Made by a program: the position numbers and the translations under genes. A stretch of 26,424 nt of DNA from a virus, in IMG/VR virus record IMGVR_UViG_3300031753_000036, positions 1-26,424 of that record. One strand, written 5' to 3'. The notes beneath the pieces are model-generated. The model saw nothing but the letters and a program-made list of their open reading frames with translations. It made no database searches and was not told the DNA's origin. Of this stretch, positions 1,260-17,876 are shown in pieces. How positions within the stretch are numbered: position 1 is the first letter of the stretch; each line of letters opens with the position of its first letter.

Positions 1260-3272
1260 TCATTCCTCCCAAGTAAGTAATTTCGGTTTTGCCTGTTGCG
1301 TCCGCGGCGGCTCAAGATAGACTTGCCAATGCGCTGTAATTCCATGCTCCGGATGCGTGAACCACAGAGCCTGCGATGGCCGGCTATACGGAGCACGCAA
1401 TGCGAGATGGGCGAACTCGTCAAGTCCCTTAAGCGAGTTATTCACGATAAGGCCCGGCAAAGTTATGTATTGATGCCAATGGCCCATAAGCACGGTATCG
1501 AAGTCTTGCCCGATCTGACTTTCGGAATTACGGATTTTGATGGAACCTCGCATGATTGGCCCAAGAGCGCCAATAATTCCGTCTCCGCCACGAACACCTA
1601 AATTATCGCCGTGTGTAAGAAGATATCGATGGTTGTAGACACTATACCGAATATCGGCCCCATCAGCAATTTTGAATGCGATCTGTTTATTGTTACGAAA
1701 ATGCCTCGCGAGATTACAATAGATGTTCCACTCGTAGGACGTATTGTGGCTTGCAACACCTGCCGATAAATATGTCCCCGAGGAAGACGAGAGTTCAGTG
1801 ATTTCTCTGACACCCCCCTCCTGAACCCTAGTGATGGCCAACTGTTTTGTCTTATAGAGATACGCGGTCCCAACTGCAAACTCCGCCCATTTTTTCAATA
1901 GGCGCGGCGGTCGAACCGTGCCCAAGAACCGGGCGATCTCTGAGTGACCCCCACTTATGTAAATAGCGTGCCGGGTCTTTCTGTGCTCTGCTTGGTTGCC
2001 AGCCTGAATGCTAGTGTGCCATTCGAACCCTAACTCAGACAAGAGCCGCTGGACTGTTTCCAGCATTGCATTTTCGGTCTGGTTGAAAGACAACTGAGCA
2101 GTTCCATGCCGCCTTGACAAACACCCCTCGCCGTCAAAAGCCGCCGCTAAAAAGCCAGCCTCATAGGACCGATCTTCTTTCCAGACCGGAAGATATTGAT
2201 CAATCTTCCAGACAGCTTTATTTTTCCGATCCCCCGCCCAATGATCCAACATTTCCTGCGCGCTAATCCACTGGACTGCACTATTCCCCTTCTTACCGTG
2301 AGCAAGAAACTTGTGCTCTGGGGTGGCATATAAAGTACGACCATCCTCCAAAGTTATCGCAATAGTGCGGGCCTGCTTTGAAGCTGCCTGCGTGACATAG
2401 GCCGTCATGTAACGCCGCCCTTGTTGCCCGGCAGGTTCTTCTTCAAATGCCAACAGGGGGTCATTTGCTCGAAGTGTCTTGGCTTCAACCCACCGAAGAT
2501 CACGGGTTAAAATCGGTGTGTCCGCGGCAAGGCACCAAACGCGCCCTTTCATTCTCGGCTTCCGCGTAGAGCGCCCGTGGTTTCCAGTTACAGCAGGTAC
2601 AAAGACCCGGCCGAACTTCGTCGCAAAAAGTTCTATATTCGCTGCAATAAGATCGGTCAATTCGTTCACACATTGCTGTGGGGTCCTATCATTTGTGACC
2701 ATCAGTTCTTCATGGATATCGCCGGACATTAGGTCGCCCCCAAGAGCAAACACAATGCCAGGATAGACCGTCTTGACGCGGCCCATATGATTATAAGCCA
2801 AGTCTACCGTCGTTTCTGCACCGCGACGGATACGCTTAGCGGCAATCTCGCTATTGAACTCGTTGACGCCGCCGACTTCAGCACCCCGGACAACTTCGCC
2901 GTAGTGCCAATCGGAACCGAAATAAGTTGGCATTCCGCGAGTACCGAGTTTGCCGCCCCGTGTCAGCCATTTCGGCGGTTCCGGATCATAGGCCGCGATT
3001 TTGAAAATCTCACGTCTTATCGCCTCGGCGCTTTCTTGCTCTTGCTGCGCGCTTCGGAGAGCCGCTTCCAAGGTTTTGACTTTTGCCTTTGTCTTGTCTA
3101 ATTCGGTCAAGACAGGTGTTGAAGCTGTCAGGCCGCGTTTTCTTGCTTCTTGAAGACTGGCGCGAAATGCGCTTAGCTGGCATCCGAACTTCGCTGCGGC
3201 TTTCTCGTTGCCCAGTTCCGCCCGCGTTTTCAATCTCATTACCAGGTCCGCGTCTGTCAACCGGTTGGCCAT
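1260..3272 (-). CDS. Intein-containing calcineurin-like metallophosphoesterase
   Basis: The precursor is 670 residues. Residues 1-100 are helical, begin MANRLTDADLVMRLK, and resemble a DNA-binding or coiled-coil lead. The metallophosphoesterase motifs follow in order: SDWH (Asp121, His123), GGD (Asp180), GNH (Asn231, His232), THGD (His554) and GHWH (His598, His600). Between GNH and THGD sits a 264-residue intein (Cys247-Asn510). Splicing would leave a protein of 406 residues with Thr511 as the +1 nucleophile. The family acts on DNA or nucleotide phosphodiesters and is found in many phages as an exonuclease-like gene. The start is the ATG at 3272, with GGAG 7 bases upstream; an in-frame TTG at 3284 lies upstream of that ribosome site. 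The preceding nuclease frame runs 263 bp into this gene. Confidence 0.85.
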   Translation of the reverse strand: MANRLTDADLVMRLKTRAELGNEKAAAKFGCQLSAFRASLQEARKRGLTASTPVLTELDKTKAKVKTLEAALRSAQQEQESAEAIRREIFKIAAYDPEPPKWLTRGGKLGTRGMPTYFGSDWHYGEVVRGAEVGGVNEFNSEIAAKRIRRGAETTVDLAYNHMGRVKTVYPGIVFALGGDLMSGDIHEELMVTNDRTPQQCVNELTDLIAANIELFATKFGRVFVPAVTGNHGRSTRKPRMKGRVWCLAADTPILTRDLRWVEAKTLRANDPLLAFEEEPAGQQGRRYMTAYVTQAASKQARTIAITLEDGRTLYATPEHKFLAHGKKGNSAVQWISAQEMLDHWAGDRKNKAVWKIDQYLPVWKEDRSYEAGFLAAAFDGEGCLSRRHGTAQLSFNQTENAMLETVQRLLSELGFEWHTSIQAGNQAEHRKTRHAIYISGGHSEIARFLGTVRPPRLLKKWAEFAVGTAYLYKTKQLAITRVQEGGVREITELSSSSGTYLSAGVASHNTSYEWNIYCNLARHFRNNKQIAFKIADGADIRYSVYNHRYLLTHGDNLGVRGGDGIIGALGPIMRGSIKIRNSESQIGQDFDTVLMGHWHQYITLPGLIVNNSLKGLDEFAHLALRAPYSRPSQALWFTHPEHGITAHWQVYLEPPRTQQAKPKLLTWEE
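1743..2534 (-). other. Intein with LAGLIDADG-type homing endonuclease domain
   Basis: In-frame insertion of 264 codons. The N-terminal splice block is CLAADTPILT, starting with the catalytic Cys. Block B is LYATPEHKFLAHG, with the usual T-x-x-H. An endonuclease-like helix, YEAGFLAAAFDGEGCL, resembles a LAGLIDADG block C, with a weaker second element near EIARFLGTVRP. The C-terminal blocks are REITELSSSSGTYLSAG and VASHN, followed by extein Thr. All residues needed for splicing appear present: Cys1, block B His, penultimate His, terminal Asn and +1 Thr. The insertion point is just after the GNH metal-binding motif, typical of inteins that target conserved active-site DNA. Whether the endonuclease is active cannot be told; only one clean LAGLIDADG motif is visible. 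Confidence 0.88.
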
Positions 3273-3585
3273 ATTTTTCTCCAATGCAATACAGAAGGAA
3301 ATCTTCCAAGGAAAGAACTACAATCCACTCTTTGCCGTTTCGTTTGTGGCAGACAATTGGGATTTTATTTCCTGCATCTCTAACGCTTTGTGCCAGCCAA
3401 ACATAAGGGTTGCCAGCTTCAATACGCTTGGCTTCGATATGAAATCCGTGGAGATTAGAAACGATATCTTCCCCTTCAATCCCATTGAATTGCTGCCCAC
3501 GTCTAGCGTCGTATCCGAAGGACCGGAAAATTTCTGCGAGTTCTCGTTCGCCACGAGCACCTTTCTGTCTCGAATTTATCGGCAT
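3010..3585 (-). CDS. Holliday-junction-resolvase-like PD-(D/E)XK nuclease
   Basis: The first ~110 residues show the Hjc/VRR-like nuclease pattern: RQKGARGERELAEIF with the first Glu, an acidic GEDIV, then FHIEAKRIE as the E-x-K core, and a closing strand KEWIVVLSLEDFL. Such phage enzymes cut branched DNA during replication or packaging. The ATG at 3585 begins MPINSRQKG; upstream in-frame TTG codons are less likely, and no strong ribosome site is visible. Family members usually end soon after the last strand, but this frame continues about 85 codons, 263 bp of which overlap the phosphoesterase start in another frame. The extra tail is Arg/Lys/Ser-rich and looks like a shadow of the other gene rather than a domain. 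Confidence 0.75.
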   Translation of the reverse strand: MPINSRQKGARGERELAEIFRSFGYDARRGQQFNGIEGEDIVSNLHGFHIEAKRIEAGNPYVWLAQSVRDAGNKIPIVCHKRNGKEWIVVLSLEDFLLYCIGEKYGQPVDRRGPGNEIENAGGTGQRESRSEVRMPAKRISRQSSRSKKTRPDSFNTCLDRIRQDKGKSQNLGSGSPKRAARARKRRGDKT

Positions 3586-11125: not shown

Positions 11126-13042
11126 GTGATTTCACGCAAACACGCAGAAGCTTTAGCATATGCGGCCGACGGTATTCCAATATTTCCCTGCCGGGTCAAT
11201 GGCAAGGAGCCGGCTTGTCCAAATGGGTTCAAAGACGCAACAACAAACCAGGAAAAAATCAATGAGTGGTGGCAAAAAGAAGACTACAATATCGGGCTCT
11301 GTCCCGCTGATACGGGATGGTGCGTAGTTGACATCGATCCGGGCGGAATGGAACAATGGGCGGATTTTTGCTCTATATACGGATGGAATCGTACTGCATC
11401 TGTTCAGACGCCCAGACTTGGAACCCATTTCTATTATTCCGGTTCACTCCCTCCCACTACATCTAAACTCGGTCAAGCTATTGACACCCGAGGAATAGGA
11501 TCATACGTACTGGTCCCGCCTTCTTCAATCAATGGAAAGGAATATCAGTGGGCGGATGAATGTCCTATCGCCCCACTCCCGCAATGGATCGCGGAGTTCG
11601 TCTCTAAGCCCAAAGATGTTCCAATATCGGGGGCCAAAGGTGAGCCGGTCACTCGACAGCACGTTGAAGATTTGTTGCGGTATTGTGGATCGGCAAACAC
11701 TTCGCGAGATGAATGGCGTGACATTGTTGCGGCCATTCGCGCCTGCAATCTTGGCGATGACAACGAGGCAGATAATCTCGAAATCGCCTTGGCATGGTCC
11801 CGCGGCGACCTCACGCCCGATCCCCCCGGCAACTACACGGACGACAAGGCGGTTGAAGAACTATTCTGGTCAATGCCACCGAAAGAAGACGGGATAGGCT
11901 ATGGTACCCTCTTGCATTTAGCACGGGAGGAAGGCTATGATGGTCCTTCGGCCAGGCCGAATGAGACGGCGCAATCGGTATTCGGCACATATCTTGACCG
12001 GCTGAAAGCGGCCGCTATGCCCTTCGCGCCGTCTTCACCGTATAATCCCTACATCATCCTTACCGGCCAGGAAATCAAACAAATTCCGCCCGCCCAATGG
12101 CTGGTGCCGGATTTAATCCCTGAATTAGGGATCGGCATGTGGTACGGCGACGAAGGTGCTTATAAGACCGGATTACTATTTCAGCTTTTTTTCGACCTAG
12201 CCCACAACATCGAAACCTTTGGACATAAAGCGGCCAGTCCGATTGATGTATTATTCTTGAGCGGCGAAGGGCAAGAGAACATCGCGCACAAACGATTGCC
12301 AGCATTAGAAACCGCCCGCGATAAAATGGCCGGGATCAATTTTCATTTCATGGCCGAGATGCCTCCAATTTATGATCCGGCAGAAGCCGCTAAAGTAGTC
12401 GCGGCAATCCGGGCGAAGGGGATTAGGCCGCGCCTAATCGGCCTTGATACAATGGCTGATGCCATGTCCGGCCTGGACGAGAACAATGTCCAAGACGTGC
12501 GGAAATTCATCGACGTGCTCAAAGCGATCAAAAAGAATTTTGGTTGCGCAACAGTTTCATTGCATCATACAAACAAGGAAAATAAATATCGTGGATCGAC
12601 TGGACTTAAGGCGTTAGATTTTCGCGCACGTGTTACGGCTTGGGACAAAACCAAAGCGGTTGCTCTCAAGATTGAAAAAATGCGGGACGCAGAACGCCGT
12701 GAAGAACCATGGACCTTTCAAGGGCAAACCGTAGGGCAAGGATTAGTCTTTCGCCCGACTACAGTCCAAGAGCACAAGCTTTTGACCCAAACCGAAAATC
12801 TCTATGAAGACAAAAAAATCGGCATGGCTTTATTGCAGCTTGGGATAAATCAAGAAGACAAAGCAGTTCCGACTAGGATTATAGCCGATCAATTATTGCC
12901 AAGAAATGGCACAGAGAACGAAGAAGAGCGCGAAGCGTTATTAGGGCAAGCTTGCAAAACCTTAAATTTGCTTGCCAGAACTACGCTTCGCGCCTATTGC
13001 AAACCGGACGGCCGGGCTTGGTTATGGTTCCTCACCCGGTGA
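11126..13042 (+). CDS. Bifunctional primase-polymerase / RepA-like helicase
   Basis: This is a 638-residue protein with three parts. Residues 1-160 are a Prim-Pol domain with the catalytic VVDIDPGG (Asp69, Asp71), TPRLGTHFYY (His101) and DTRGIGSYVLVPPS. Residues about 175-265 resemble the PriCT-2 linker domain (DEWRDIVAAIRAC, then AWSRGD). Residues about 310-540 are a RecA/RepA-like ATPase with Walker A GDEGAYKT (340-347; Tyr replaces the usual Gly before Lys, as in several phage relatives), Walker B RLIGLDTM (Asp440) and SLHHTNK. It should prime and unwind DNA at the phage origin. The GTG start has AAGGGA upstream, at a rather long 11-base spacing. It is the only plus-strand gene between two minus-strand blocks, and its stop overlaps the convergent alanine-rich gene by 11 bp. 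Confidence 0.9.
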   Translation: MISRKHAEALAYAADGIPIFPCRVNGKEPACPNGFKDATTNQEKINEWWQKEDYNIGLCPADTGWCVVDIDPGGMEQWADFCSIYGWNRTASVQTPRLGTHFYYSGSLPPTTSKLGQAIDTRGIGSYVLVPPSSINGKEYQWADECPIAPLPQWIAEFVSKPKDVPISGAKGEPVTRQHVEDLLRYCGSANTSRDEWRDIVAAIRACNLGDDNEADNLEIALAWSRGDLTPDPPGNYTDDKAVEELFWSMPPKEDGIGYGTLLHLAREEGYDGPSARPNETAQSVFGTYLDRLKAAAMPFAPSSPYNPYIILTGQEIKQIPPAQWLVPDLIPELGIGMWYGDEGAYKTGLLFQLFFDLAHNIETFGHKAASPIDVLFLSGEGQENIAHKRLPALETARDKMAGINFHFMAEMPPIYDPAEAAKVVAAIRAKGIRPRLIGLDTMADAMSGLDENNVQDVRKFIDVLKAIKKNFGCATVSLHHTNKENKYRGSTGLKALDFRARVTAWDKTKAVALKIEKMRDAERREEPWTFQGQTVGQGLVFRPTTVQEHKLLTQTENLYEDKKIGMALLQLGINQEDKAVPTRIIADQLLPRNGTENEEEREALLGQACKTLNLLARTTLRAYCKPDGRAWLWFLTR

Positions 13043-13772
13043 GATAGAGATAGGCCGCACCGGGCGATTTCATCTCGACTAGGATTTGGACAACATCTTC
13101 GGCAAATTTTGACAGCGTATGGGCCGCAAAGGCCGTATAGACCGCCGCATAGACCGCCGCAGAGGCCGCCGCAGAGGCCGCATTACCGGCTGCATTGGCC
13201 GCCCGGACCGCCGCATGGGCCGCCGCATAGGCCGTCTGGGCCGTATGGGCCGCCGCAGAGGCCGTCTGGGCCGTATGGGCCGCCGCATAGGCCGTCTGGG
13301 CCGCCGCAAAGGCGGCCGCCTGGGCCGCCACATAGGCCGCCGCATTGGCCGCCGCATCGGCCGCATTGTCCGCATGGGCCGAATAAGCCGCCGAATAAGC
13401 CGCCGCTCTTGATCTGTCTTGGCCCGACAACCAGTTACCGGCCCAATTCTTATAGGCGGAAACTTTATGGACCAAGAGTGTAACCCGGATTGCGAATTCA
13501 ACTTGGTCTATCTCGACTGAGCCTAATTGCGCGATGGCCAATCGCCGTAATAGCCCGGCCCGTTCGCTGGGCCCGCCCTCGAACCGGTCATTCAACGCAA
13601 TCTTAAGCTCACGTACAGCCTTACCCACACAAGGCGGACTATCACTATGAGGCAGGCCATAGGCCGCGCATACAGCAGCCTCGACACACATTTTACCCGG
13701 TATGGGCTCGCCCATGCCCTTCGACAGGCCAGCATCGACAATTTCCAGGACTTTCTTTGCGATGGTTTCCAT
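13032..13772 (-). CDS. Alanine-rich repeat protein, copy A
   Basis: This is a 246-residue protein. Residues 1-122 form a conserved domain (METIAKKVLEIVDAG, GKMCVEAAVCAAYGLPHSD, RRLAIAQLGS). Residues 123-216 are about two-thirds alanine with single Y, H, Q, T, N or S every three or four residues, predicting one very long helix or alanine coil. The last 30 residues are a conserved tail ending in SPGAAYLYLTG. The N-terminal domain differs from copy B at only about six positions. I recall unnamed phage and bacterial proteins of this architecture; no function can be given. GGGAGA lies 7 bases before the ATG at 13772; an upstream in-frame extension crosses the promoter and is rejected. The gene ends overlapping the primase stop. 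Confidence 0.8.
   Translation of the reverse strand: METIAKKVLEIVDAGLSKGMGEPIPGKMCVEAAVCAAYGLPHSDSPPCVGKAVRELKIALNDRFEGGPSERAGLLRRLAIAQLGSVEIDQVEFAIRVTLLVHKVSAYKNWAGNWLSGQDRSRAAAYSAAYSAHADNAADAAANAAAYVAAQAAAFAAAQTAYAAAHTAQTASAAAHTAQTAYAAAHAAVRAANAAGNAASAAASAAVYAAVYTAFAAHTLSKFAEDVVQILVEMKSPGAAYLYLTG
13125..13406 (-). repeat. Degenerate GCC-rich repeat tract of copy A
   Basis: Irregular tandem units such as GGCCGCCGCAGAG and GGCCGCCGCATAG (12-15 bases) encode the alanine-rich helix. The unit order differs from copies B and D, as expected from slippage or unequal recombination. Both strands stay free of stops here, creating long false frames. Confidence 0.8.
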
Positions 13773-13798
13773 TTTTAGCTCTCCCTTTGTGCGCCCTG

Positions 13799-13828
13799 TA
13801 TATACCGCGACAGGGCGGATTCTGTCCA
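13799..13828 (-). promoter_or_regulatory. Promoter of copy A (repeated cassette)
   Basis: TGGACA (13823-13828), 18 bases, then TATATA (13799-13804). The spacer carries GACAG and CTGTC in inverted orientation, a possible operator. The same block, with the upstream A/T-rich segment (TTTGGTTAAGAATTGGTT on the plus strand), recurs before the chimeric gene and, diverged, before the gene at 17614. Confidence 0.55.
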
Positions 13829-13880
13829 TCCCTATTTGCTTTTTTTGGTTAAGAATTGGTTACGCGGAACAATACGCTGG

Positions 13881-14588
13881 TCATGCGGTGAGATAGAGAT
13901 AGGCCGCACCGGGCGATTTCATCCCGGCTAAGAGTTGGACAACATCTTCGGCAAATTTTGACAGCGTATGGGCCGCAGAGGCCGTATCATAGGCCGCCCG
14001 GACCGCCGCATAGGCCGTCTGGGCCGCCGCATTGGCCGCCTGGGCCGCCGCATAGCCCGCATGGACCGCCGCATTGGCCGCCTGGGCCGCCGCATAGGCC
14101 GCCGCCGAGGCCGCCGCCGAGGCCGCCGCCGAGGCCGCATAGGCCGCCGCATTGGCCGCAGAGGCCTCCGCATCGGCCGCATTGTCCGCATGGGCCGCAT
14201 AAGCCGCAGAGACCGCCGCCGCTCTTGATTTGTCTTGGCCCGATAACCAGTTACCAGCCCAATTTTTATACGCCGAAACTTTATAGACCAAGAGTGTAAC
14301 CCGGATTGCGAATTCAACTTGGTCTATCTCGACTGAGCCTAATTGCGCGATGGCCAATCGCCGTAATAGCTCGGCCCGTTCGCTGGGCCCGCCCTCGAAC
14401 CGGTCATTCAGCATAATCTTAAGCTCACGTACAGCCTTACCCACACAAGGCGGACTATCACTATGAGGTAGGCCATAGGCCGCGCATACAGCAGCCTCGA
14501 CACACATTTTACCCGGTATGGGCTCGCCCATGCCCTTCGACAGGCCAGCATCGACAATTTCCAGGACTTTCTTTACAATGGTTTCCAC
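13881..14588 (-). CDS. Alanine-rich repeat protein, copy B
   Basis: This is a 235-residue paralogue of copy A. Its conserved domain (1-122) is nearly identical (VETIVKKVLEIVDAG, then the same CVEAAVCAAYGLPHSD), the alanine-rich helix (about 123-205) has a different repeat order and is shorter, and the tail is SPGAAYLYLTA. The GTG start at 14588 has AGGAGA 6 bases upstream and follows the stop of the 65-residue gene by 1 base, so it is expressed within that operon rather than from its own promoter. The longer frame to 14630 is an artefact of alternative starts. Its 3' flank (GGTCATGCGGTGAGATAG) is shared with copy D. Confidence 0.8.
   Translation of the reverse strand: METIVKKVLEIVDAGLSKGMGEPIPGKMCVEAAVCAAYGLPHSDSPPCVGKAVRELKIMLNDRFEGGPSERAELLRRLAIAQLGSVEIDQVEFAIRVTLLVYKVSAYKNWAGNWLSGQDKSRAAAVSAAYAAHADNAADAEASAANAAAYAASAAASAAASAAAYAAAQAANAAVHAGYAAAQAANAAAQTAYAAVRAAYDTASAAHTLSKFAEDVVQLLAGMKSPGAAYLYLTA
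13974..14222 (-). repeat. Degenerate GCC-rich repeat tract of copy B
   Basis: It encodes the alanine helix of copy B. The clearest tandem part is three successive GCCGCCGAG units near 14098-14130, coding for repeated Ala-Ala-Ala-Ser. Overall unit order differs from copy A. Confidence 0.8.
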
Positions 14589-14589
14589 T

Positions 14590-14787
14590 TTAGTTCTCCT
14601 GTTTAGCACTAAGTAAATTCCCAATACCACTACGAATACAATAGAGAATTTCTGTTTTGGTTCTCAAAGGTACAAGCCGGATATCGGGTTTATGGCCCCG
14701 GCGAGCCCAAAAAATTTCAAGACACTGCTTTAGCGCTAAGGCCCCGTCATATGACAAAGCGTCTGGCGCGTTTCTAAATTTTGCCAT
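14590..14787 (-). CDS. Small hypothetical phage protein (65 aa)
   Basis: It starts at ATG 14787 (MAKFRNAPDALSYDGALALK) with AAGGGA 5 bases upstream, and stops 1 base before the GTG of copy B. A longer frame to 14874 lies inside the preceding gene and is not supported. The product is a basic helix-rich protein with KTEILYCIRSGIGNLL near the end. No domain is recognised. The tight coupling to copy B suggests co-expression. Confidence 0.6.
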   Translation of the reverse strand: MAKFRNAPDALSYDGALALKQCLEIFWARRGHKPDIRLVPLRTKTEILYCIRSGIGNLLSAKQEN

Positions 14788-15103
14788 GGTTTTCCCTTTC
14801 TTCGATTGTTGCCGTTCCAATTCGAGCATGAAAAATTGCCTCTTGGTCCGGAAACAACTTGAACGCAAGAGCAATCAATTCGCGCCAAGTTTCCGCATCG
14901 CAAGCGATTTGATAAGACGCGGAAATATCGCTGAATCGTTTGCCAGCATCATTGATCCAAATTCCCGTAACGTCCGAAAGCCGGGTATAGCCGCCAATTG
15001 CAAAGAGAACTTGCGCGCGCCATTCGATATGCGTTGCTATTGCAGAGCGAGATTTGTTATCAACGATAGGCAAGTTAATTTGGTACAGATTTTTTATGGA
15101 CAT
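14774..15103 (-). CDS. Hypothetical phage protein (109 aa)
   Basis: The ATG at 15103 has AGGGG 7 bases upstream. The sequence reads MSIKNLYQINLPIVD, then a central IWINDAGKRFSDISASYQ and LFPDQEAIFHARIGTATI, probably a small alpha-beta fold. I recall similar unnamed phage proteins with the LFPDQEA segment. It overlaps the next gene by 14 bp. Its ribosome site lies in a short readable extension of the orphan 32-bp tail repeat just upstream, so the junction where this gene joins that repeat is a recombination boundary. Confidence 0.65.
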   Translation of the reverse strand: MSIKNLYQINLPIVDNKSRSAIATHIEWRAQVLFAIGGYTRLSDVTGIWINDAGKRFSDISASYQIACDAETWRELIALAFKLFPDQEAIFHARIGTATIEERENHGKI

Positions 15104-15120
15104 TTTTTAGCCCCTGGTAA

Positions 15121-15152
15121 GATAGAGATAGGCCGCACCGGGCGATTTCATC
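15121..15152 (-). repeat. Orphan copy of the 32-bp 3' end of the alanine-rich genes
   Basis: These 32 bases are identical to 13043-13074, 13892-13923 and 16676-16707, the 3' coding ends of copies A, B and D. Here no alanine-rich gene precedes them; the transposase-like fragment stops at 15151. Read leftwards it still encodes MKSPGAAYLYLT followed by RG and a stop. It is best read as the remaining right end of a fourth, replaced copy. Confidence 0.85.
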
Positions 15153-15540
15153 ACACGTTCTCCCCAAAGCGATAATCTTCGGGTTCTTCAAGAGCCGGGG
15201 GAACGTAACTACTTGGCATATAAGCTTGCTCGAATGTATGGCTGGCGACAAGGTATGCCGCCCAAAACCAGACGTTCAGCGGCGTGTGGGTCCGCTCCAT
15301 GATCGTGTCGGCAGTCAGGGCCGTGTCGCGGCGGCAATGGCGACAACGCAACACACCGGGCCGCGCGGCAAATCGGAAGGGCTCGCCCACCGTCCCACAC
15401 TTGGGGCACACAAAGCCATGCTCCCAGCGGATGCGCTCAAGGTAGGCCGCGCAAGCCGCGTCATCGGGAAAGAGCTTCTGAAATTGCGGGAGCGACTTAG
15501 GGAACGGAAGGGCTCCGCGCTGATGAATGTCGGCAATCAT
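15151..15540 (-). CDS. ISXO2/IS1595-type transposase N-terminal fragment (zinc ribbon)
   Basis: This is a 129-residue product. Residues 15-102 match the N terminus of ISXO2-like transposases: FPDDAACAAYLERIRW, zinc ribbon CPKC (45-48) and CRHC (66-69), then RRDTALTADTIMERTHTPL and WFWAAYLVASHT. Full transposases continue for about 200 more residues with the DDE catalytic domain. Here homology ends near residue 102 and an unrelated 27-residue tail runs to the stop, so the catalytic domain is missing. It has an intact start 3 bases after the previous gene and no recognisable terminal inverted repeats. It could be decay debris or a retained DNA-binding zinc-ribbon protein. Confidence 0.8.
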   Translation of the reverse strand: MIADIHQRGALPFPKSLPQFQKLFPDDAACAAYLERIRWEHGFVCPKCGTVGEPFRFAARPGVLRCRHCRRDTALTADTIMERTHTPLNVWFWAAYLVASHTFEQAYMPSSYVPPALEEPEDYRFGENV

Positions 15541-15543
15541 GGC

Positions 15544-15915
15544 TTAGTCGTTCCTAGCGTGCGGGAATTCACATTGGCGCGGAGACCCCTGCGCGCACGG
15601 CAGTTCTCCATCTTTGCATTTCCAGCAGTTGTGAAGGATGAACATGCCAGTTTTTGCGGGCTCGCTAGCGCGAACGATTGTTCTCCTGTCCTTGTCATAG
15701 ACGAGGCGTCTAGGGCACGGCAGGCAACGCGTCCTATCTGTGGGATAGCCGATAGGCGGGCAGTCTTGACAAAACAGCGTGGGCTCGACTTTGTTCTCTG
15801 TATCGTAGGCGGACGTGGTTTCGGTGAGTTTTTTCAAACGCCGCGTCCGGAGGCGCTCATTGCGCTCGTCTTCTGTCTCGGCGAATTGTCTATCCCAGTC
15901 AGGGCGCTCGCTCAT
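15544..15915 (-). CDS. Cys-rich hypothetical protein (123 aa)
   Basis: It begins MSERPDWDRQFAETEDERNERL, a charged helical lead, then has Cys pairs CQDC, CLPC and CWKC plus two further Cys near the end, probably binding two zinc ions. The ATG immediately follows the upstream stop (TAAATG) with GGAGGG 9 bases before it. No family is recognised. It belongs to the four-gene block 15151-16496 inserted between paralogue ends, and sits directly upstream of the transposase-like fragment. Confidence 0.6.
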   Translation of the reverse strand: MSERPDWDRQFAETEDERNERLRTRRLKKLTETTSAYDTENKVEPTLFCQDCPPIGYPTDRTRCLPCPRRLVYDKDRRTIVRASEPAKTGMFILHNCWKCKDGELPCAQGSPRQCEFPHARND

Positions 15916-16128
15916 TTATGCCGCCCTCCCCGTGAGAAGAGCCAGTTCAATGCGCTCAATCTGCGATTGCAGATACCGGCGCTCCCATGCGGAGCACATA
16001 CCAGCCAGTTTGGCGCGCGCCCACTCGGCGCTCGCACGCAAATGAGCGGGATCGTAATAAGTGTTTCTCAAAATGACACAATTGTCGATTGCGGGAAGCG
16101 GGCGCTCGTTAGCGAATTGGTTCGTCAT
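15916..16128 (-). CDS. Small helical hypothetical protein (70 aa)
   Basis: The ATG at 16128 overlaps the stop of the chimeric gene (ATGA form) and has GGAGA upstream. The product begins MTNQFANERPLPAIDNCVIL; the second half, HLRASAEWARAKLAGMCSAWERRYLQ, is a long amphipathic helix. No domain is recognised. The gene is coupled on both sides, so it is probably real. Confidence 0.55.
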   Translation of the reverse strand: MTNQFANERPLPAIDNCVILRNTYYDPAHLRASAEWARAKLAGMCSAWERRYLQSQIERIELALLTGRAA

Positions 16129-16496
16129 CTCGGCTCTCCATCGTTTGATGAAGCTAATATAGGGGTTGTATCTGTGGGCGTTAAGCGGATAAGCATGGTA
16201 CCATCTATTCCCAATAAATCATTGGCAAGACGGGCTTGCGCCAAGGCCGCAAGAGCGCGGCCACGTTCACCCATGTCATGCGCATCGCGCACATGTTTAA
16301 GGGCTTGTGTTAGTTCCCAGGCGGCTTGCGAGAACCGGACAGCGGCCTGCCCCATGGCATTTGCCAGCGCCTCAGTGCGATTGTATTCAGGTGTCCGGCC
16401 GAGCTTGTTCCAAGGGATATTGCGGCCATAGTTGAATTTGCGCCGGCCAAAAACCGGATCGGCAATTTCCAGGACTTTCTTTGCAATGGTTTCCAC
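16125..16496 (-). CDS. Chimeric gene with alanine-family 5' end and unrelated body
   Basis: This is a 123-residue product. Promoter, ribosome site (GGGAGA) and the first codons (VETIAKKVLEIAD) match copies A, B and D almost base for base. After about residue 13 the sequence changes to an unrelated body: FGRRKFNYGRNIPWNKLG, then a helical EALANAMGQAAVRFSQAAWEL and KHVRDAHDMGERGRAL, resembling an unnamed phage protein and ending GEPR. The ordinary paralogue body and tail are absent; the missing tail turns up at 15121-15152. The GTG start at 16496 is chosen by alignment to the paralogues. The downstream gene overlaps by 4 bp. Confidence 0.7.
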   Translation of the reverse strand: METIAKKVLEIADPVFGRRKFNYGRNIPWNKLGRTPEYNRTEALANAMGQAAVRFSQAAWELTQALKHVRDAHDMGERGRALAALAQARLANDLLGIDGTMLIRLTPTDTTPILASSNDGEPR

Positions 16497-16525
16497 TTTA
16501 GCTCTCCCTTTGTTGTGTGCCCTTG

Positions 16526-16555
16526 TATATACCGCGACAGGACGGATTCTGTCCA
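16526..16555 (-). promoter_or_regulatory. Promoter of the chimeric gene (repeated cassette)
   Basis: TGGACA (16550-16555), 18 bases, TATATA (16526-16531), with the GACAG/CTGTC inverted repeat in the spacer. It is nearly identical to the promoter of copy A over about 80 bases, including the A/T-rich block upstream of the -35. Confidence 0.55.
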
Positions 16556-16589
16556 TCCGCTATTTGCTTTTTTGGTTAAGAATTGGTTG

Positions 16590-16643
16590 AAAAAAAAAAA
16601 ACCGCATTGGCCGCCGCAGAGGCCGCCGCAAGGGCCGATGCGG
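16590..16643 (-). terminator. Intrinsic terminator after copy D, made from alanine-repeat DNA
   Basis: Read leftwards, an 11-bp stem with one mismatch (16633-16643 with 16602-16612) encloses a 20-base loop and is followed at once by twelve T (A run at 16590-16601). It sits 22 bases after copy D's stop codon and before the next promoter. The stem sequence is a leftover of the GCC-rich repeat. The A12 run could also slip in length. Confidence 0.75.
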
Positions 16644-16664
16644 CGGACCATGCGTCGAACTAGG

Positions 16665-17378
16665 TCATGCGGTGAGATAGAGATAGGCCGCACCGGGCGA
16701 TTTCATCCCGGCTAAGATTTGGACAACATTTTCGGCAAATTGTGACAGCGTATGGGCCGCCGTATCATAGGCCGCATGGGCCGTATCATAGGCCGCATGG
16801 ACCGCCGCATTGGCCGCATGGACCGCCGCATTGGCCGCCGAGGCCGCCGCAGAGGCCGCCGCATCGGCCGCATTGTCCGCATGGGCCGCCGCAGAGGCCG
16901 CCGCAGAGGCCGCCGCAGAGGCCGCATAGGTCGCCGCATTGGCCGCAGAGGCCTCCGCATTGTCCGCCGCATCGGCATCATCGGCCGCAGAGGCCGCCGC
17001 AAGGGCTGCCCTTTTAGATTTGTCTTGGCCAGACAACCAGTTACCGGCCCACGTCGTAAAAGCCGGAGCTCGATAAACTAAGAGTGCAACTCGAATTGCG
17101 AATTCAACTTGGTCTATCTCGACTGAGCCTAATTGCGCGATGGCCAATCGCCGTAATAGCCCGGCCCGTTCGCTGGGCCCGCCCTCGAACTGGTCATTCA
17201 GCATAATCTTAAGCTCACGTACAGCCTTACCCACACAAGGCGGGTTATCACTATGAGGTAGGCCATAGGCCGCGCATACAGCAGCTTCGACACACATTTT
17301 ACCCGGTATGGGCTCGCCCATGCCCTTCGACAGGCCAGCGTCAACGATTTCCAGGACTTTTTTTGCGATGGTTTCCAC
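16665..17378 (-). CDS. Alanine-rich repeat protein, copy D
   Basis: This is a 237-residue paralogue. Residues 1-120 keep the shared domain (METIAKKVLEIVDAG, CVEAAVCAAYGLPHSD, QLGSVEIDQVEFAIR) with a few changes around VYRAPAFTTWAGNW. The alanine-rich part (about 121-207) has its own order, with more Asp and repeated AVHAA and AYDTA units, and the tail is the common SPGAAYLYLTA. The GTG start at 17378 has GGGAGA upstream. It follows the 67-residue gene by 32 bp in one operon and is followed by a strong intrinsic terminator. It is more diverged from A and B than these are from each other. Confidence 0.8.
   Translation of the reverse strand: METIAKKVLEIVDAGLSKGMGEPIPGKMCVEAAVCAAYGLPHSDNPPCVGKAVRELKIMLNDQFEGGPSERAGLLRRLAIAQLGSVEIDQVEFAIRVALLVYRAPAFTTWAGNWLSGQDKSKRAALAAASAADDADAADNAEASAANAATYAASAAASAAASAAAHADNAADAAASAAASAANAAVHAANAAVHAAYDTAHAAYDTAAHTLSQFAENVVQILAGMKSPGAAYLYLTA
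16758..17018 (-). repeat. Degenerate GCC-rich repeat tract of copy D
   Basis: It encodes the alanine helix of copy D, with runs of GCCGCCGCAGAG-type units near 16840-16920 and two copies of a GGCCGCATGG-ATC/GTA block near 16758-16800. Unit order differs from copies A and B. Confidence 0.8.
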
Positions 17379-17614: not shown

Positions 17615-17649
17615 GTGAGTTCTCCCTTTGGTTTGGCCTTATATATCTA

Positions 17650-17678
17650 TATATACGCGACGGAACGGGTTCAGTCCA
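17650..17678 (-). promoter_or_regulatory. Diverged copy of the repeated promoter cassette
   Basis: TGGACT (17673-17678), 17 bases, TATATA (17650-17655). Upstream A/T-rich bases and the GCTATTTGG/TTTTGGTTAA-like segment match the other two cassettes. The spacer has GAACGGGTTC, an inverted repeat that differs from the GACAG/CTGTC of the other copies, which may mean a different repressor site. Confidence 0.5.
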
Positions 17679-17681
17679 ATG

Positions 17682-17876
17682 CTATTTGGCCTTTTGGTTA
17701 ACAATTCGTTGGCGCCCGATCTTAGGTTCGATCTTTTCTACCTCTGTATCCGCCGCGAGAAGGCGAAGAAGTCCCGCGCGGATATCCATGTTGGAAGGGT
17801 CATTAGGAAAGAGAGGATCAGCGATTAGGCGCAACATCGTGCGTTCAGATAGATGGAAATTATATTGCAGTGTCAT
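17682..17876 (-). CDS. First leftward gene of accessory region (64 aa)
   Basis: The ATG at 17876 has AAGGAGG 9 bases upstream, a near-perfect ribosome site. The product starts MTLQYNFHLSERTMLRLIAD and contains NMDIRAGLLRLLAADTEVEK; it is short, charged and helical. No domain is recognised. It is first after the strong leftward promoter and its structured leader, a typical place for an early regulator or host-takeover peptide, but that role is inference. A new promoter starts just past its stop. Confidence 0.65.
   Translation of the reverse strand: MTLQYNFHLSERTMLRLIADPLFPNDPSNMDIRAGLLRLLAADTEVEKIEPKIGRQRIVNQKAK

Follow-up and report, generated by a model that had tools for sequence, protein, structure and literature searches.

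The locus treated here raises the question of how about 1.3 kb of other DNA came to lie between the two ends of a phage gene family whose body is missing at that place. Phage mosaicism is mostly ascribed to homologous or illegitimate recombination, and an earlier reading made from the sequence alone (the sequence-only reading) had proposed that a gene copy was opened and its body exchanged for unrelated cargo between ends that stayed in place.

An alanine-rich family and the ends of a lost copy

The window, by which we mean the whole stretch of DNA that was analysed, is a complete IMG/VR record of 26,424 bases from soil. It represents a tailed phage, with a terminase, a portal and a major head protein encoded in the record; the nearest named relatives of the terminase are in Rhizobium phages (45% identity), and neither near-identical phages nor a named phage close at the DNA level were found. 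At 1260-3284 (minus strand) the window also holds an ORF for a 674-aa phosphoesterase-like protein, which seems, judged by eye, to bear an intein (CLAADTPILTRD... to ...SAGVASHNT).

The alanine-rich family is present in three full copies, all on the minus strand, and in several partial pieces:

13032-13772, minus strand: family copy A (sequence comparison of the family)
13794-13861, minus strand: promoter copy 1, before A, 87% identical to 16521-16588 (promoter 2)
13881-14588, minus strand: family copy B (sequence comparison of the family)
15120-15152, minus strand: orphan 3' end of the family (tail of the lost copy C), 33 bp that match the A, B and D ends exactly
16461-16588, minus strand: promoter, ribosome binding site (RBS) and 13 codons of the lost copy C, 121 of 133 identities to copy A, promoter included
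16589-16664, minus strand: 76 bp of alanine codons with a T run behind them, between copy D and promoter 2, up to 97% identical over 29 bp to family repeats
16665-17378, minus strand: family copy D (sequence comparison of the family)
17618-17711, minus strand: third, more diverged copy of the promoter and RBS, upstream of a non-family gene (17614-17411)

The proteins belong to a widespread phage family (L005-L057; Caulobacter phage Cr30, H4), built of a conserved N-terminal domain of about 95 aa, a variable and often alanine-rich middle and a C-terminal motif like K[SA]PGxxFLxL. One copy is found in 51 of 54 loci, whereas three are present in the window phage, three in L056 and two in L048. 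Comparison of the family with Pfam and NCBIfam gave no match above the cut-off.

The orphan 5' end, with a GTG start at 16499, differs from the start region of copy A by 5 mismatches and 7 gaps over the 133 aligned positions, and its RBS and codons also match copies B (47/50) and D (44/47). The sequence-only reading had taken promoter, RBS and 13 codons together as a family start. All three are present, but the promoter half is not specific to the family: the copy at 17711-17618, which aligns to promoter 2 with 72 identities, 15 mismatches and 10 gaps, precedes a non-family gene, so that only the 13 codons are diagnostic. At the other side, the record contains the 33-bp family end exactly four times, and a search of all IMG/VR with 32 bp of it returned no contig besides the window record, which together exclude chance. 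Over 45 bp the orphan tail shares 39 positions with A and 37 with B or D, and is thus slightly nearer to A. As the 5' end with its promoter and the tail are both A-like, the simplest source of the two orphan ends is plausibly a single A-like fourth copy, referred to as C. The proposed flanking of foreign DNA by family ends is therefore borne out, as is the similar arrangement of the neighbouring blocks (end of B, promoter, A; end of D, promoter, end of C). The stretch at 16589-16664 is, to judge by its codons, a further degenerate family fragment. Behind the orphan tail, the gene at 14774-15103 has a weak match to phrog_3543 (E=3e-4), a family whose function is unknown.

A transposon left half inside the locus

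The DNA between the orphan ends consists of the following parts:

16198-16460, minus strand: body of a chimeric ORF, a gene fragment that stops at the transposon left end
16172-16197, minus strand: left terminal inverted repeat of the IS1595 family, 26 bp, CATGCTTATCCGCTTAACGCCCACAG, like the left ends of L067, L068 and L069
15916-16128, minus strand: passenger ORF 1 (g15916), 70 aa, directly behind the left end, positioned as the passenger modules of intact elements
15544-15915, minus strand: passenger ORF 2 (g15544), 123 aa, cysteine-rich, abutting ORF 1 and stopping 3 bp before the transposase start
15235-15540, minus strand: N-terminal 102 codons of an IS1595-family transposase with zinc ribbon (PF12760, E=1.6e-14)
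15153-15234, minus strand: short gene fragment FEQAYMPSSYVPPALEEPEDYRFGENV fused behind the truncated transposase (sequence comparison)

Judged by these similarities, the stretch 16197-15235 belongs to an IS1595-family transposon, of which it is the left half. The left repeat, the sole copy in the record even when three mismatches are allowed, differs from the left end of L067/L068/L069 at two purine positions only, and a promoter-like TTAACG-17-TATATT points inward from it. The distance from the left repeat to the transposase start (657 bp) is within the range of the clade and typical of it, and the two putative passenger genes in this interval are the hallmark of a transporter IS. The zinc ribbon is that of the IS1595 family (PF12760 in the relatives, E=8e-11 to 2e-14). 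Residues 1-102 of the transposase are up to 81% identical in amino acids and 78% in DNA to full transposases in four viral contigs, and the DNA similarity ends sharply at about 15235. The ISXO2-like DDE catalytic domain (PF12762/NF033547) is absent from the window, cut off at codon 102, so that the window copy is a remnant rather than a working IS1595 member. No right terminal repeat was detected along the window. With the right end lost, one target duplication is gone, leaving GATGGTAC as the left flank, and the window copy falls outside the mobile insertion cassettes.

The four inner genes had been taken as unrelated. This does not hold, for one transposon fragment comprises g15916, g15544, the first 102 codons of g15151 (15540-15151) and the final 24 codons of the chimeric ORF, which terminates by read-through of the left repeat. 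For passenger ORF 1 no relatives were found beyond a weak match to phrog_38739 (E=0.009), and passenger ORF 2 had none among phages or viral contigs. The two remaining pieces are similarly isolated: phages, viral contigs and fetched loci yielded no relative for the body of the chimeric ORF, and the fragment at 15153-15234 had none apart from a weak match of its last residues to the start of phrog_29027 (E=0.02).

A transposon left half with two gene fragments beside it requires at least four breakpoints, not two, and joints lie at about 16460, 16197, 15235 and 15152. The remnant of copy C is separated from the transposon by 263 bp, so that what survives of copy C was not itself the insertion site. 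Searches of phages and IMG/VR did not yield a relative with an empty or intact insertion site.

Intact relatives, their passenger slot and transposase-free cassettes

When the transposase was used as query, at least 42 viral loci of nearly full length came up with identities of 58% or higher, some of which share a contig or represent one element; seven close loci came from GTDB genome bins. We then looked for inverted repeats adjoining 8-bp duplications and removed duplicates, which left 24 transposase-bearing elements with perfect 8-bp target duplications (20 IMG/VR viral, 4 from bacterial bins); a scan with the terminal repeat itself added seven more. Random positions passed a similar test of repeat and duplication in 1 of 2640 cases. 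The intact relatives have both terminal inverted repeats, and their full transposases carry PF12762 and match NF033547 (E=1e-26 to 5e-40). A gene for the terminase large subunit (TerL) or the portal was found with two models in 20 of 40 viral records; the other 20 are viral by IMG/VR classification alone, and the contigs are metagenomic. The patterns used for genome scans detect 20 viral and 7 genome loci, with matches in 4 of 385 sampled alphaproteobacterial genomes, which is no more than suggestive of an enrichment of the element in phages. A transposon confined to phages was considered and rejected, given that ISAcr1 on bacterial plasmids is 66% identical and that four GTDB loci have passengers and target duplications.

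In the 20 perfect viral elements, 435-1170 bp lie between the left end and the transposase, and this slot contains mostly one to four small ORFs, often linked by GGGCTGAGCCATG-like stop/start overlaps. What the slot contains varies from element to element, with the ends and the transposase retained. In all 22 closest pairs, whose transposases are 81-92% identical in DNA, an alignment can be made over 25-190 bp at the left end and again from the transposase through the right end, whereas the passenger module between them gives essentially none; the exceptions, within one subgroup, are 30-36 bp at the start of one passenger and one copy of the transposase start. Exchange of cargo between fixed ends, as the sequence-only reading had supposed, thus does exist, but it is the transposon, not the alanine-rich family, that provides these ends.

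Homologous passengers recur across elements, once at a different position (second in L072, first in L073), and the recurring ones have pN/pS values of 0.30-0.50, which fits real genes under purifying selection. Matches to phage protein families, for example phrog_1273, were obtained for 5 of 10 passengers selected for individual scans but for only a minority among all 51. TTGACA is found in the left repeat of 12 of 30 elements, with TAnnnT behind it at promoter spacing; from these motifs it appears that the left end may drive the passenger module. In L170 (3484-5736), which is the same element as L171, the module holds 55 bp, or the first 17 codons, of a transposase about 255 bp before the complete gene.

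The repeat scan also revealed nine distinct units of 370-1035 bp that have the same ends and perfect 8-bp duplications without a transposase (L227, L234, L237, L240, L252, L253, L257, L269 and L271). With cargo, terminal repeats and a target duplication, these nine relatives have the composition of mobile insertion cassettes. Four further contigs carry the same insertion as L227. Four or five of the nine contain genes assigned to known phage families, namely a PAPS-reductase-like phage gene in L240 (phrog_424, 4.5e-54), phrog_12600 in L252 (1.3e-69), phrog_3193 in L257 (4.6e-35), phrog_15963 in L271 (6e-10) and, as a weak match, phrog_34105 in L269 (8e-5). One contig holds both the cassette L235 and a transposase gene of the clade (L184), a co-location that would allow mobilisation in trans by the cognate transposase. 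One-ended left remnants recur as well, as in L194, which consists of the left repeat and residues 8-131.

Probable origin of the locus and a proposed refilling of the slot

The evidence from the joints and from the relatives makes it very probable that the locus is a transposon remnant inside a lost family copy, a scar with several breaks. The sequence-only reading, in which copy C was opened, a cassette took the place of its body in a single step and the family ends served as recombination arms between phages, draws on the retention of two A-like ends in order and orientation and on the likeness of the neighbouring blocks. Its premise, the loss of a fourth copy with both ends kept, stands; in place of a cassette of four unrelated genes, though, there is a broken transposon with fragments. 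The transposon left end, the transposase cut in mid-gene and the two further fragments, with their several joints, all lie inside the supposed cargo, and no further viral contig carries the 33-bp end, which makes recombination arms and one-step replacement very unlikely. Other cargo between the same ends, which that reading would lead one to look for in related phages, was not encountered, the searches having returned no near relative of the locus. It had also named relatives with the inner genes but no family ends as evidence against itself. The transposase, the only cargo gene with relatives, served for this comparison, and its full-length relatives have their own terminal repeats, with no gene of the alanine-rich family in the fetched flanks.

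The orphan 33-bp end might instead be a functional element, a terminator or a 14-aa peptide coupled by TGATG. In favour of this are its sequence, MKSPGAAYLYLTRG, and an ATG that shares bases with the stop codon of the preceding ORF. We regard this as highly improbable, since the sequence codes for the C-terminal motif that is conserved in the family and found again at the end of many among the 54 related loci, and since it sits where the tail of the lost copy would; free-standing copies of the end without a gene body were not found in IMG/VR contigs. Domestication of the truncated transposase as a zinc-ribbon DNA-binding protein, for instance a repressor of incoming copies, is unlikely but has more to recommend it. 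The ORF is intact with a clean stop, and pN/pS between the window and L151 is 0.22 over these codons, a value that mostly reflects the past of the transposase itself. Other truncated copies end near residue 131 (L194, L195, L202), and in two (L196, L225) the reading frame continues into an HNH endonuclease. The window copy, however, is cut at residue 102, short of this recurring break, and its tail resembles a random fusion.

For the transposon remnant we propose that this part of the window phage once received a complete element of about 1.7 kb, and that later deletions took the right half of the element along with most of copy C; the joints are spanned by the two short gene fragments. By homology, the intact relatives would act as transporter insertion sequences, with a transposase that acts on 24-bp repeats and yields 8-bp target duplications, and with a slot between left end and transposase that holds one to four small genes. 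A deletion could fuse the left half of such an element to neighbouring phage genes and, if the left remnant were remobilised with the right end of another copy, these neighbours would become passengers, either of a new element or of a transposase-free cassette. We infer this refilling through left-end remnants from the single L170 footprint and from the left remnants that were found. The window's half-element has the form expected of a refilling intermediate, but simple decay would fit as well.

The parent kinds of such elements are already known. Copies of IS with passenger genes ("transporter ISs") are described from the IS1595 family (Siguier et al. 2009, as cited in PMC3129680 and PMC12561309), and share with the elements described here PF12760 and PF12762 (NF033547), terminal inverted repeats, passengers without a role in transposition and, in the intact relatives, 8-bp duplications. 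In contrast to these, the window copy is half an element, many intact relatives sit in phage contigs, and their one to four tiny ORFs, some of phage families, vary between almost every two. ISAcr1 (IS1595 family, Acidiphilium) and a sphingomonad relative, with transposases 66% and 64% identical, share the repeat core CCTATCCGSTTGAC and the 8-bp target duplications. They lie on plasmids and have a length of 1080 and 1150 bp; 47 and 114 bp precede the transposase, which leaves them without passengers, and the copies compared are identical along their length. Mobile insertion cassettes that lack a transposase are known from Bacillus and Proteeae (MIC231, qnrD mic; PMC3913671). They likewise have genes between terminal repeats and target duplications, whereas the cassettes found here have IS1595-type ends, several genes of phage families as content and viral contigs as hosts. 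In phage integron cassettes (PMC9892861) single genes also travel between phages; here, no integrase or attC was seen, and the ends and duplications are those of a DDE transposon. Transposases are reported to be rare in phages, very rare in virulent ones, and to make up less than 0.4% of the recombining genes of phages (PMC8136500, PMC10879196). The literature searched, mostly outside subscription journals, contained no description of a comparable cassette system in phages.

It is possible, though we hold this with somewhat more doubt than confidence, that phages, many of them soil-metagenomic, host a transposase-driven cassette system composed of an IS1595-type clade and transposase-free cassettes sharing its ends, in which single small phage genes are captured behind the left-end promoter and moved between phages, with half-elements as intermediates for new cassettes. 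Slot turnover faster than that of the transposase, together with single-gene cassettes, would be a testable route for the spread of small phage genes, and such a system could account for isolated tiny genes without relatives in phage genomes. It also calls for caution, in that such patches should not be taken for homologous "cargo arms" where a decayed transposon end lies nearby.

Some minor observations concern the structure of individual elements. In L068 (128-299) the left end is present as a perfect 86-bp tandem duplication, and a further motif resembling the left repeat lies 37-51 bp inward in L072, L161, L163 and L164. The cassette L271 (3546-4580) contains a second left repeat, and two cargo units appear to be stacked there. 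In L225 (400-2382) and L196 (4074-6097) the HNH endonuclease replaces the catalytic part of the transposase with both repeats kept, the fusion point lying behind residue ~140 or ~129 (HNH_3, E=6e-8 for L225).
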